A stretch of DNA of 64,000 nucleotides from assembly GCA_012271135.1 (NCBI GenBank), contig JAAXGZ010000118.1, positions 1 to 64,000 on the forward strand, given 5' to 3'. Position 1 is the stretch's first letter, and each line of letters begins with the position of its first letter. The notes beneath the pieces were generated by a model. It had not been told where the DNA came from and ran no database searches. It saw only the letters and a program-made list of their open reading frames with translations. A program made the position numbers and the translations under genes. Below are positions 57,248 to 62,913 of this stretch, in pieces. Source of the stretch: Caldilineales bacterium (GTDB lineage Bacteria > Chloroflexota > Anaerolineae > Caldilineales > Caldilineaceae).

Positions 57248-59182
57248 GTGTCCATCGTCAGACACGAGTTGTCGCTACACACCTCGTTTTTCAAGTCCCT
57301 GCGCAAGCTGGGCCGCAACGAACAGGATGAGATCCCGGACTTCCTGAACAGGGTCCGGTTCGATCGGCACGGCGGCAAGCTCAATCTCAAGAAGCTGCGG
57401 CACAACGAGTTCCACACGGCGCGGGTGACCAAGTCCGTGCGTTGTGTTCTGCATTGGCCGCCGGATGGCGGTCATCTGTCCCTCTTCTACGTGGGACAGC
57501 ACGATCATGCCGAACGCTGGTTCAACCGGCACCGTTTGGGCACGTCCCTGCGCACCGGGGTGGCGGGCAGGGTCGCGCCGGATCGCCGGATTGCGGCGAT
57601 GAGCGATCTGGAGAGCCTGCTGGACCGGGAGGATCGCCAGCACTTCTGGCATGTGGACGACGAAGACCTCCTGCACCGGATGCTTGAGACCCCGGACCAG
57701 TTGTGGCGCGTCTATCTGGATCCGCGTCAGCGGGAACTGGTGGAAACCGACGCGGACGGTCCCATGCGGGTGTTGGGCGGCGCCGGCACCGGCAAGACGG
57801 TGGTGGTCATGCACCGGGCCGTGTGGCTGGCCCGGAACATGGCGGCGAACCCCGGGGACCGCATTCTGTTCCTGACCAACAATAGCAATTTGGCGGCCGA
57901 AATCAGTCGGGATCTGCGGACCTTGGTTTCCGACGCGGAGGTGCTTGAGCGGATCGAGGTCACCAATCTCGACCAGTGGGTCGAGCGGTTCCTCAAGGCC
58001 CGGCGCTGCGACTTGCAGATTCTGAACGGCCGCACCCAGCAGAAGGACCAGCTCTGGCGGAAGGCCTGCGACAAGGTGGAAGTCGACCGGTTCTGGTCGC
58101 AGGAACTGCTGAAGAAGGAGTTCGAGCAGGTGGTCCTGGTCCAGGGCATCCATACCCTGGAGGAATACTTGGAGGCGGACCGCAGCGGCCGCGGCATCGC
58201 CCTCACGGAGGCACACCGGGTGGAACTCTGGCCCGCCTTCGAGTTCTACCGGGAGAGTCTGCGCAATCGCCGGCTGGTGGAACGGGAGGATGCCTATCGC
58301 GAGGCCCGGTTGCGCGTCGAAGCGGACTGGACCGGGTTGCCCTATGTGGCGGTTGTGGTCGACGAGGCGCAGAACTTCGGGTTTGACGCCTTCAAGCTGT
58401 TTCGCGCCCTTTCCTTGGCCGGTACCGCGGACTCCGACCGGAAGCGGGAGTGCAATCGGCTTTTCATCACCGGCGATGCCCATCAGCGCATCCACCGGGT
58501 CAAGGTGAACCTGGGGCGCTGCGGCATCGACGTCAAAGGCCGTAGTCACCGGCTCGAGCTGATATACCGCACCACCAACTCCATCTACACCGTGGCGGCC
58601 CATGTGCTGGGGGATGGGCACTATGACGATCTCAACGGTCAGGTCGACACGCTGCAGGGATACCGCAGCCTCTATGACGGTCCCTTTCCCTATTGGGAGA
58701 CCTACGCGGATGTCGAGGAAGAGGGGGCCGGCATCATCGTGGACTGGATCAAGCACCTTCAGCACAAGGACGACTTGGGGCGGGACGACTTCTGCCTGCT
58801 GGCCCGGACGGTGTCCCGCGTGAAGGCCTGGGAACGGGCACTGAAGCAGAAGGGGCTCGACGTGTACTGCCTGCGTTCGGGCGGGGCCGACACGGGCCAC
58901 GGCAGTTCCGTGCGTCTGGCCACCGCCAACAAGCTCGAAGGCTTGGAGTATCCTGCGATCGCCGTCCTGGATGCGGACAGTGCCAGCTACCCCCTGCATC
59001 AGGAGATGCAGTCGGTGACGTCGGAGGCGGAACGGGTGGAGCAGTACAAGCAGGAGCGTTCGCTGCTGCATGTGGTATGCACCCGTGCCCGCAATCATTT
59101 GCTAATCTGCACCCGGGGCCCGATTTCGCCGTTTCTGGAAGGCGTGTTCGAGCCGGGCCGGAACGGGTTTGCCCGGCACTGA
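57248..59182 (+). CDS. RelE/ParE-like domain fused to UvrD/Rep-like SF1 helicase (intact Walker motifs)
   Basis: N-term LSLHTSFFKSLRKLGRNEQDEIPDFLNRVR...LNLKKLRHNEFHTARVTKSVRCVLHWPPDGGHLSLFYVGQHDHAERWFNRH; Walker A VLGGAGTGKTVVVMHRA; Walker B VAVVVDEAQNFG; ITGDAHQRIH; YRTTNSIY; LLHVVCTRARNHLLICT. Confidence 0.85.
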   Translation: MSIVRHELSLHTSFFKSLRKLGRNEQDEIPDFLNRVRFDRHGGKLNLKKLRHNEFHTARVTKSVRCVLHWPPDGGHLSLFYVGQHDHAERWFNRHRLGTSLRTGVAGRVAPDRRIAAMSDLESLLDREDRQHFWHVDDEDLLHRMLETPDQLWRVYLDPRQRELVETDADGPMRVLGGAGTGKTVVVMHRAVWLARNMAANPGDRILFLTNNSNLAAEISRDLRTLVSDAEVLERIEVTNLDQWVERFLKARRCDLQILNGRTQQKDQLWRKACDKVEVDRFWSQELLKKEFEQVVLVQGIHTLEEYLEADRSGRGIALTEAHRVELWPAFEFYRESLRNRRLVEREDAYREARLRVEADWTGLPYVAVVVDEAQNFGFDAFKLFRALSLAGTADSDRKRECNRLFITGDAHQRIHRVKVNLGRCGIDVKGRSHRLELIYRTTNSIYTVAAHVLGDGHYDDLNGQVDTLQGYRSLYDGPFPYWETYADVEEEGAGIIVDWIKHLQHKDDLGRDDFCLLARTVSRVKAWERALKQKGLDVYCLRSGGADTGHGSSVRLATANKLEGLEYPAIAVLDADSASYPLHQEMQSVTSEAERVEQYKQERSLLHVVCTRARNHLLICTRGPISPFLEGVFEPGRNGFARH

Positions 59183-59311
59183 CGAATCCCTGCGTCCAGC
59201 TCACGCCCGGCCGCGGTCTGCGGACGGGCAATCCTCCGCTGATTCGCCAACAGGCGCAGTGACATCCCGTCGCGGTCTCCCACTCTACTCCATTCCGTCG
59301 ATGGCGTTGCA

Positions 59312-61171
59312 ATGCAAAGAAACTCACGAAAGATCAGCCTTCACAAGGACTTGTGGACCAAGGCCAACTTGACACCGAAGGAGGTCTCGAGAATCGAGGC
59401 TACGCTGTGCCAACTGCACGGCAACGATACCGCCACGCCGGGCTTGAATCTGAAGCGGATCCAAGGTGCCGAGCCGCTGCGTTCGGTCCGTGTCACCGAC
59501 GATATCCGGATGGTTCTGCATCTGGCAGGAAACGAGATCATCGTCCTGCATGTGGACCGTCATGACAACGCCTACGAGTGGGCTCGAAACAACAATGGCC
59601 AAGACAGGCTGAAGAGCCTGACAAACCCCCAGAACCTCAGGCCGTACCCGTCGGGTAAGATTGCCTCCGGCCCTCAGCCAACCATGGCCGGGGATTCAAG
59701 GCCCTCCGGTTCATTCGCCAACCTGTCCGGGATCGGCATGTCCAAACCGGATTCCGAATCGAACGTCTCCGGTCGGGGACGGTGGATCAGGAATGATCGA
59801 TCTGCGGATTCCTCCGCCATGGTTGGCAAGCTCCTGGATGCGGCTTTGGAAGCCTGGCAGGAACCGGTGGCTGACCCCTCGACGGTCAAGCAACTGTACA
59901 GGGCCTACAGCGGCCCTGTGCTGGTATTGGGCGCGGCCGGAACCGACCAACTGCTCACCGCAGTAATCCGCAGTGTGTACTTGGCGGAACAATTTGCAGG
60001 GCTTGGTGAGCAGGTTCTCCTACTGACGGACTCCGTGTGCGCGTTTGAAAAGGCCGAACGGTTCCTGAAACTGTTGAGGGAGCGAGCCGAGGGCGAGCCA
60101 GACCCGAGATCGGCTGTGGAGGCCGTTGAAGTGTCCCTGTTCGATGGCTGGCTGGAATGTCAGGTTCAGGACATCGATGTCGAAGCTGCGAAGTCCGGGC
60201 GCGAGGCGCCGCCTACACAAGGGGGGGCGACCCGGGATGCTGCCTGTCGCCTGGTGCACCTGGGGCTGGAGGATGGCACCCTGTCCCCTACGACCGCGGC
60301 GGTGGTAGTGCTTGATTGCCAGAACCTTGGCCGACAGGCTGTGCGCCTGTGCCGGAAACTGGCCCTGACGACTGTTCCGAAGGCCGAGCGGTGGAACAAG
60401 AGCGAACTGGAACGGCTGTGCCTGATTGCGGATCCGTTCCAGCGTACAGGCGGCCCGCACCTGAATATTCAGGATTGTCAAGTCAGGCCGGCCAAGACCA
60501 TTCGGTTGCGACAGAGTGGCATTGTTGCGCAAGCGGTCATCGACACGGCGGTATCGGCGTTGACAGGACAGGAATTCGACGATCTGACGGGCGGGATTGC
60601 CACGCTGGACGGTTATCGCAGCATTGAGTCCGGCAGACAGCCGTCATTCCGCCGTTGCGCCAACACCAAGGAGGGAGCGCAACTGGTGGCGGACTGGCTG
60701 CACGAAGTGCAAGAAGCCGACGAGGAACTGAAACCCGGCCGGGTTTGCCTGGTGGCCCGGACCAACAACCGCATCAAGGATTGGCGCAAGGCCCTCCGTA
60801 AACTGGATGTGGAGACCCGACGCCTCAGGCACGACAGCGATGTCGCAAGTTCCACGGGCAAGGTTTGGGTGGCCAAACCCGAAGAGCTGGATCCCGAGTT
60901 GTACTTCCAGGGAGTTGCCTTTCTGGACGCGGACCGCAAGTCGTGGCCCCGCCGCAAAACCCTTCGCCAGGCCGTGGACGAAACCGACAGGGATGCGGCA
61001 GCGCGTCGCGAGCGCTCCCTGTTCTATCTGGCCTGCACCCGCGCCCGGAGATACTTGCTGTTCTGCAGCCAGGGACCGTTGGCACCTTGGCTGGAGACGT
61101 TGGCTCCGCCCGTGCCCGAATCCGAATCCGAGATCAAATCCTCCGCTTCACCTCCCGCGAGGTCCCAAGCC
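59312..61171 (+). CDS. RelE/ParE-like domain fused to degenerate UvrD-like helicase (Walker A and B lost); reads through in frame into the downstream dehydrogenase
   Basis: N-term LNLKRIQGAEPLRSVRVTDDIRMVLHLAGNEIIVLHVDRHDNAYEWARNN aligns with the preceding gene; VLGAAGTDQLLTAVIRS replaces GGAGTGKT; AVVVLDCQNLG replaces VVVDEAQNF; LFYLACTRARRYLLFCSQGPLAPWLE retained. Confidence 0.75.
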
Positions 61172-62122
61172 ATGAAGTACCCGGTACTGATCGATCAGGA
61201 AATCACCGACGCGATGCTGCAGGTCCTGCACGACCAGGGATGCGACACCTATATGTGGAATCCCGGCGGGGAGACGCCGCGCATGGAGGAGACCGTGGGC
61301 TTCTTTGTCTACGGCCATGCCCTGATCGACGGCCCCATCATGGACCGCATGCCCAAGCTGAAGGTCATCAGCAATATGGGCGTGGGGGTGGACCACATCC
61401 GGGTTCCGGATGCGGCCGAACGCGGCATTGCGGTCGGCAACACGCCCGGCTTTGTGGACGGCGCCACGGCGGACATGGCCTTCCTGCTCATGATGGCCAT
61501 TGCCCGCAACCTGAAGAAGGGCATTGACTATGCCCGCGGACCGGAGTTCCGGCACTTCGACCCGTCGCTGTGGCACGGCAAGGAAATCAACGGCGCCACG
61601 CTGGGCATCTTCGGCATGGGTGCCATTGGCAGCACAGTGGCGCGGCGCGCCTCCGGCTTCAACATGCACGTCATCTATCACAACCGCAACCGCCTGTCGG
61701 ATACACGCGAGGCCGAACTCAACGCCTACTGGGTGCCGCGCTCCAGTTTGCTCGCCCGGTCGGACTTCCTGCTGTTGTCGCTGCCGCTCAACGAGGAGAC
61801 GGAGAGCTGCATGGGGCTGGCGGAGTTCCGGCAGATGCAGGAACACGCGTACCTGATCAACATTGGCCGCGGCGGCCTGGTCCGCACCGACGAGCTGGCA
61901 ACCGCCCTTGAGGAAGGCCAGCTGGCCGGCGCCGCCCTGGACGTGACGGAACCGGAACCGTTGCCGCGGGATCATCCGCTTGTTGAGCATCCCGATGTGA
62001 TCATCACCCCACATCTGGGCTCCGCCACGGTGGAGTCACGGGAAGGCATGTTCATTCGTACCGTCGAAAACCTGATGGCAGGCATGCAGGACAAGCCCTT
62101 GCTGAGCCAGGTTTTTCAGTAG
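61172..62122 (+). CDS. D-isomer-specific 2-hydroxyacid dehydrogenase (in frame with the upstream ORF, no stop between)
   Basis: MKYPVLIDQEITDAMLQVLHDQG...LKVISNMGVGVDHIRVPDAAERGIAVGNTPGFVDGATADMAFLLMMAIARN; GATLGIFGMGAIGSTVARRASGFNMHVIYHNR; INIGRGGLVRTDELATALEEGQLAGAALDVTEPEPLP. Confidence 0.9.
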   Translation: MKYPVLIDQEITDAMLQVLHDQGCDTYMWNPGGETPRMEETVGFFVYGHALIDGPIMDRMPKLKVISNMGVGVDHIRVPDAAERGIAVGNTPGFVDGATADMAFLLMMAIARNLKKGIDYARGPEFRHFDPSLWHGKEINGATLGIFGMGAIGSTVARRASGFNMHVIYHNRNRLSDTREAELNAYWVPRSSLLARSDFLLLSLPLNEETESCMGLAEFRQMQEHAYLINIGRGGLVRTDELATALEEGQLAGAALDVTEPEPLPRDHPLVEHPDVIITPHLGSATVESREGMFIRTVENLMAGMQDKPLLSQVFQ

Positions 62123-62157: not shown

Positions 62158-62913
62158 ATGGCAGGTTCCCAGCCACCTCAGGCGGAGGCTGAACGCCCGG
62201 CTGTGCAGGTGTCCTCAAGGACGGTGTTTTCCGGCGAGCGGACCCTGACGGCACCCGAACCCGATCTGGGGCCGGGGCTTGTACCCGACACGCGCCTCAA
62301 AATGGACGGGTTGGCATTCCTGACCAGCCTCCCTGTGGCCTCCATGGCCGCCGCCTTTTTGGATCCACAGTACCGGGGCGTACTGGATAAGATGGCGTAC
62401 GGCAACGAAGGCAAGTCCCGCGAACGGGCGCGCGTTGCCCTTCCCCAGATGGCCGAGGACCAGATTACGCGCTTCGTGGCGGGTATCGACCGGTGTCTGA
62501 TACCCAGCGGCCACCTGTTTCTCTGGATTGACAAATTCCACCTGTGCACGGGCATCGGACCTTGGCTGGAGGGTACGTCGCTGGAAACAGTGGATCTGCT
62601 GACATGGGACAAGCAGCGCATGGGCATGGGCTATCGGACCCGCCGGCAGGCCGAGTACTTGGCGGTTCTCCAGAAGTCTCCTAAACGGGCCAAGGGGGTG
62701 TGGTCCGTTCACAACATTCCCGATGTCTGGAGCGAGAAGGTGCCGCGCAGCGGCCACGCCCATCGCAAGCCGGTCGGGCTCCAGGCGGAACTGATCGCCG
62801 CGGTGACCAGCAAGGGAGACATCGTGATCGATCCGGCGGCCGGCAGCTTCTCCGTGATGGATGCCTGTCGGCGCACGGGGCGTCGTTTCCTGGGGTGCGA
62901 CATCAACGGTTGA
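62158..62913 (+). CDS. Site-specific DNA methyltransferase-like (N6_N4_Mtase type)
   Basis: MAAAFLDPQYRGVLDKMAYGNEGKSRERARVALPQM; LIPSGHLFLWIDKFHLC; VDLLTWDKQRMGMGYRTRRQAEYLAVLQK; GDIVIDPAAGSFSVMDACRRTGRRFLGCDI. Confidence 0.82.
   Translation: MAGSQPPQAEAERPAVQVSSRTVFSGERTLTAPEPDLGPGLVPDTRLKMDGLAFLTSLPVASMAAAFLDPQYRGVLDKMAYGNEGKSRERARVALPQMAEDQITRFVAGIDRCLIPSGHLFLWIDKFHLCTGIGPWLEGTSLETVDLLTWDKQRMGMGYRTRRQAEYLAVLQKSPKRAKGVWSVHNIPDVWSEKVPRSGHAHRKPVGLQAELIAAVTSKGDIVIDPAAGSFSVMDACRRTGRRFLGCDING

Follow-up and report, generated by a model that had tools for sequence, protein, structure and literature searches.

An orphan tandem pair of RelE-UvrD proteins related to ArmD, one with an active-looking and one with a degenerate helicase, in a Caldilineales bacterium

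The two genes described here are located within a window of 64,000 nucleotides, the whole stretch of DNA that was analysed, from a Caldilineales bacterium (contig JAAXGZ010000118.1). ORF1 and ORF2 are both related to RelE-UvrD fusion proteins and are separated by a gap of 129 bases (Table 1). Upstream of ORF1 is a PhyH oxygenase gene, and the PhyH-ORF1 interval contains no + strand ORF of at least 100 aa. The order PhyH, ORF1, ORF2/dehydrogenase, methyltransferase, GNAT is maintained in the genus within the locus stretches compared, and the pair is adjacent, at one syntenic locus, in 4/4 genus genomes, all of which are drafts. The locus is thus fixed and syntenic, between the PhyH oxygenase gene and the dehydrogenase, and metabolic in character; the defence-island setting suggested in an earlier note on this DNA, made from the letters alone, is not supported. 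The solitary methyltransferase downstream matches a PADLOC Type II model (E 7e-83) and is 91-92% conserved beside the pair in the four genus genomes; no restriction gene adjoining it was seen.

Table 1. Features of the RelE-UvrD pair and its downstream neighbourhood, in window coordinates.
Feature	Position	Strand	Remarks
ORF1: RelE-like domain + SF1/UvrD-type helicase	57248..59182	+	644 aa, GTG start; orphan ArmD homologue
ORF1 RelE/YoeB-fold domain, residues 1-100	57248..57547	+	Arg59, Arg65, His85 retained; general-base Glu replaced by Lys48
ORF1 Walker A GAGTGKT (Lys183)	57779..57799	+	motif alignment
ORF1 Walker B VVVDEAQ	58352..58372	+	motif alignment
ORF2 open frame: RelE-like + dead SF1 helicase + D-2-hydroxyacid dehydrogenase	59312..62122	+	936 aa, 0 internal stops
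ORF2 RelE-like domain, residues 1-96	59312..59599	+	alignment; dN/dS 0.10-0.38
ORF2 dead SF1 helicase-like region	59903..61111	+	motifs I, Ia, II, III, IV, V lost, VI present; predicted fold retained
ORF2 degenerate Walker A GAAGTDQ	59930..59950	+	motif alignment
ORF2 degenerate Walker B VVVLDCQ	60302..60322	+	motif alignment
D-2-hydroxyacid dehydrogenase, 316 aa	61172..62122	+	in frame with ORF2; own ATG a possible start
GAGG, possible ribosome-binding site within ORF2 (putative)	61159..61162	+	9 nt 5' of dehydrogenase ATG
Solitary N6/N4 DNA methyltransferase	62158..62913	+	syntenic neighbour, 4/4 genus genomes; candidate module member

Both ORFs lie where the earlier note had placed them, except for the end of ORF2. 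It had been read as a 620-aa protein ending at 61171, but that position is the last base before the dehydrogenase ATG, and the frame runs on through a dehydrogenase fusion that the earlier account overlooked. The last 316 codons encode a D-2-hydroxyacid dehydrogenase domain (PF02826, E 1.2e-55), which follows a linker rich in P/E/S, and the ORF2-dehydrogenase frame is open, with no stop, in all four genus genomes. The GAGG 5' of the dehydrogenase ATG is likewise invariant in 4/4 genomes, and free-standing dehydrogenase homologues (50-56%) align starting at the residue of this ATG. Judged by these signals, the fusion, a separate dehydrogenase, or both may be made.

The N-termini of ORF1 and ORF2 had been proposed to be alignable RelE-like domains. 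They match each other and the N-termini of many RelE-UvrD proteins, and the fold is borne out by both profile and structure searches; taken together, the tests put the observation beyond what chance would give. A 25-sequence profile of the RelE domain, searched against the PDB, found YoeB first (E 5.5e-6), with other RelE-family toxins next. The AlphaFold2 model of the domain (mean pLDDT 80) has the order b-a-a-b-b-b-a, which is the RelE strand order, and its top PDB matches by Foldseek were YafQ, RelE and YoeB. A Pfam scan of the isolated ORF1 N-terminus returned no matches, the fold being established through profile and structure, and the N-terminus of a paralogue passed the Pfam ParE_like cut-off (27.4 vs 24.4 bits).

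A domain search confirmed the proposed SF1/UvrD-type helicase match (UvrD, E 7.5e-13), and the motif letters are as reported earlier (Table 1). The combination of Walker A lysine and Walker B motif is found in ORF1 and not in ORF2. At motifs I, II, III, IV and VI, ORF1 is like its relatives. Where these have xHxxKGLEF as motif V, ORF1 reads ANKLEGLEYP, so that the His and Lys are absent; because this motif is off consensus, the ORF1 motor may be weak. In ORF2, the view of a pseudo-enzyme holds in that the motor is dead, but the loss is wider than Walker A and B, extending to motifs Ia, III, IV and V, and only motif VI looks intact. The predicted structure of ORF2 nevertheless contains a helicase core, over which pLDDT is mostly 80-95; the stretch 115-167 is disordered, and the best PDB matches of the model were PcrA and UvrD. 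The pairing of an active-looking with a degenerate copy is therefore borne out, and ORF2 is kin of ArmD, the helicase discussed below, but not a working ArmD motor.

Conservation differs between the two proteins. ORF1 is 93-97% identical in three genus mates, and ORF2 is 65% identical to its orthologues. Across the 46 family genomes searched, ORF2 orthologues were confined to the genus, and none of the genomes examined beyond it showed a tandem active/dead pair. Among 50,697 phage records there were no matches, and a phage origin of the pair was rejected. The dN/dS values were 0.12-0.20 for ORF1 and 0.04-0.09 for the dehydrogenase; within ORF2 they were 0.10-0.38 for the RelE part, 0.23-0.37 for the helicase part (bootstrap upper limits of at most 0.53) and 0.39-0.67 for the inner linker. 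When the observed ORF2 substitutions were scattered randomly in a neutral simulation, 5.8-10.6 stops were expected and none is seen; the frame stayed open in at most 0.25% of trials (P(no stop) <=0.0025). The dN/dS values and the stop simulation together demonstrate that ORF2 is a protein under purifying selection, weaker than on its neighbours. These data reject a recent pseudogene and leave slow decay a small probability. The earlier note was exposed to two objections, namely that the N-termini might have no RelE-fold match and that the second copy might be a lineage-specific pseudogene with no conserved pairing; neither applies, since the fold match is present, the pairing is conserved in 4/4 genomes and ORF2 is under selection. 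We also observed that synonymous divergence between the window's genome and its mates is ~0.54-0.59 in the ORF2 helicase part and 0.14-0.22 in ORF1, and this higher value suggests that the ORF2 allele was replaced through recombination. The synonymous rates obtained for PhyH are unreliable, since at some loci that gene is truncated or incomplete.

Slow decay is the alternative that survives best, although we consider it unlikely. It holds that ORF2 is a dying copy whose frame is open merely through read-through into the dehydrogenase, its own sequence being idle. The lost motifs, a tree branch of length 2.16 and separate deletions in different genomes fit such a copy: a stretch of ~75 aa of the helicase region is kept in one genus mate (G001) and wholly or partly lost (50-75 aa) in the other three of the four genomes. 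So do the dN/dS of 0.4-0.7 in the inner linker and the fact that in every genome ORF2 reaches the dehydrogenase with no stop. If stops alone were selected against, however, the RelE and helicase parts should have dN/dS close to 1; we found 0.10-0.38, and the dehydrogenase need not rely on read-through because it has the conserved GAGG and its own ATG.

The nearest kin of the pair is ArmD of ARMADA Type II, a four-gene phage defence system with demonstrated anti-phage activity (Bell et al. 2025 preprint, PMC12458937). In ArmD, a GajB-like UvrD helicase carries a RelE-like domain at its N-terminus; mutations were made at Lys266 and Asp454, and K266 is required for defence (PMC12458937). The E. 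coli plasmid ArmD used here has Lys266 and Asp454 at precisely those positions. Over the helicase, ORF1 has 37% identity to this protein, and it shares with ArmD the domain architecture and the Walker lysine. Both ORF1 and ORF2 lack the ~95 aa found in ArmD between the RelE and helicase domains; the pair further differs from ArmD in that no ArmA, ArmB or ArmC lies alongside, the RelE glutamate is gone, a dead copy stands in tandem and ORF2 continues into a dehydrogenase. Gabija offers a more distant likeness: GajB is also a UvrD-type SF1 phage-defence helicase, and PADLOC GajB models match ORF1 (E 4e-12), but GajB has no RelE domain and ArmD is far closer to ORF1. The neighbours of the pair are the PhyH, dehydrogenase, methyltransferase and GNAT genes, and a GajA OLD-family nuclease gene is absent beside ORF1.

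In a kinship tree of 35 proteins, ORF1 and ORF2 are sisters (support 100/98), are joined with the genus's own ArmD (100/98) and fall within the ArmD clade together with the ARMADA ArmDs (96/92). Trees that group either ORF with the genus ArmD alone were rejected (p-AU 0.011 and 0.015), a result to be read with caution given the long ORF2 branch. The sisterhood agrees with two common traits, the missing interdomain stretch and the loss of the RelE glutamate. Taken by its position in the tree, the pair is predicted to be a duplicated, orphaned ArmD. The anti-phage link that had been proposed earlier is supported in this sense, by descent. RelE-helicase fusions, which the earlier note believed to exist in databases, are a class with a described context in ARMADA Type II, whereas the literature searched yielded no instance of the paired arrangement.

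The genus also carries ARMADA itself. Two genus mates (G001 and G002) have a separate gene, 45% identical to ORF1, directly behind ArmC, and G002 in addition has ArmA and ArmB upstream; this ArmC-adjoining gene is the genus's true ArmD. In the loci flanking the pair, no homologues of ArmA, ArmB or ArmC were found, and the fixed ArmA-ArmB-ArmC-ArmD order is absent. Neither the window's genome (G000) nor the remaining mate (G003) has an ArmC match, an absence that is provisional in draft genomes. Elsewhere in the window's genome (contig C12, L106:8781-9209) we noticed a 137-aa ArmD relic behind a stop, 85% identical to the G002 ArmD. ARMADA has apparently been lost from this genome while the pair persisted. 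The descent from ArmD and the presence of both ARMADA and the pair in G001 and G002 could be taken to mean that the pair serves as an ARMADA accessory in trans, for example as a spare or modulating ArmD. We regard this as improbable, for the pair occurs without an ArmC match in G000 and G003, and G000 retains just the ArmD relic, with the reservation that these are drafts.

In the comparison of catalytic residues, residues 17-82 of the YoeB row match the PDB alignment, which on its own fixes the columns of Glu46, Arg59 and Arg65. YoeB uses Glu46 as general base and His83 as general acid; Arg59 and Arg65 are also required, and a Glu46 mutant is compromised but not dead (PMC3814384). The set Glu46/Arg59/Arg65/His83 is complete in the ArmDs of E. 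coli, Pseudanabaena, Microvirga and this genus, and incomplete in both proteins of the pair. The Glu46 equivalent is Lys (K48) in ORF1, which has all the others, and Lys or His in the ORF2 copies of the genus; in the ORF2 of G001 the Arg59 equivalent is also gone (Ser). The description of ORF1 as intact must accordingly be narrowed: the ATPase motifs are present, but the RelE glutamate is lost and motif V is off consensus. Since the Glu46 equivalent is replaced in both proteins, the RNase activity of both RelE domains is doubtful. The pair shares with YoeB/RelE mRNA interferases the fold and the Arg59, Arg65 and His83 equivalents, and departs from them in the helicase fusion and the missing general base; nor was an antitoxin gene seen.

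These residues bear on a toxin-effector module, in which sensing of foreign DNA by the helicase would trigger mRNA cleavage by the RelE domains, and ORF2 would restrain ORF1 in the manner of an antitoxin. The RelE fold and the three catalytic residues retained in ORF1 are compatible with it. The toxin-like output that the earlier note had envisaged is nevertheless not supported: the general-base glutamate is absent from both domains, even if the YoeB mutant warns that its loss need not be fatal, Arg59 is Ser in one ORF2, and ARMADA acts without abortive infection (PMC12458937). We judge such a module to be very unlikely. Least probable of all is that the fused helicase-like/dehydrogenase enzyme is itself the meaningful product, the RelE-helicase part serving to regulate or localise a metabolic enzyme, as the in-frame fusion with its P/E/S-rich linker in 4/4 genomes and the low dehydrogenase dN/dS could suggest, given a possible internal ribosome-binding site and start and free-standing homologues that need no RelE-helicase arm.

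The explanation we prefer, with roughly even confidence, is that the pair is a tandem ArmD duplicate outside ARMADA, fixed in a metabolic locus and composed of an active motor and a non-motor partner. ORF1 would be an ATP-driven single-strand DNA translocase. ORF2 would retain the helicase fold as a non-motor partner and regulator of ORF1, binding either nucleic acid or ORF1 itself, and the RelE domains would bind nucleic acid (RNA) or the ribosome instead of cleaving mRNA. The role might still be DNA surveillance, in mobile-DNA defence or repair, with ArmA, ArmB and ArmC no longer needed; surveillance is favoured because of the descent from a defence helicase, and the metabolic locus means that repair or another cellular role is also possible. 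Counting against this explanation are the off-consensus motif V of ORF1, the fast evolution of ORF2 and the deletions in its helicase region, as a decaying gene might show, the metabolic locus, and a sample of four draft genomes.

By analogy, an association of ORF1 and ORF2 as an active motor with a regulatory partner seems most likely. RecB-RecC is a known case of an active SF1 motor joined to an inactivated partner. In AddA-AddB, the inactivated SF1 helicase domain of AddB recognises Chi, with AddA as its partner (PMC4824097). The likeness is one of logic, the kinship of the pair with these complexes being limited to SF1, and the domain search found no nuclease domain in ORF1 or ORF2, unlike in AddAB/RecBCD-type complexes. 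A stronger version, to which we give only a minor share of belief, would have the pair as an obligate heteromeric SF1 machine, a duplicated phage-defence helicase domesticated for a cellular role, in which the dead copy is a nucleic-acid-recognition or signalling subunit physically tied to the dehydrogenase.

The wider RelE-UvrD family includes a second clade, whose members are encoded behind a Type III methyltransferase gene (PADLOC MTase_III, E 0). We observed this arrangement at loci L109-L112, L114-L116, L119, L155 and L156, most of which also have a ResIII restriction gene. It is a recurring operon, found in Chloroflexota and on plasmids of Pseudomonas avellanae and Gemmobacter, and no description of it was found in the literature searched. 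In the same family as the window's genome, an ArmD-clade RelE-UvrD gene lies behind UvrD-PDDEXK and PDDEXK genes that resemble AddA and AddB (L113:7399-15945). On a Tsukamurella plasmid (L091:4338-8257), two tandem UvrD-type genes lie behind an ArmC-like gene; the second of the two matches only weakly. Because RelE-UvrD genes also occur beside Type III restriction-modification genes and in an AddAB-like operon, the RelE arm appears to be a general accessory of DNA-targeting systems.

ArmD had been described only as one of the four genes of ARMADA. The descendant reported here stands outside that system, doubled, with one motor lost and still under selection, and the retention of such a pair suggests a new two-part machine more than it does gene decay. 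The orphan pair makes it testable how a defence helicase turns into a two-subunit machine.
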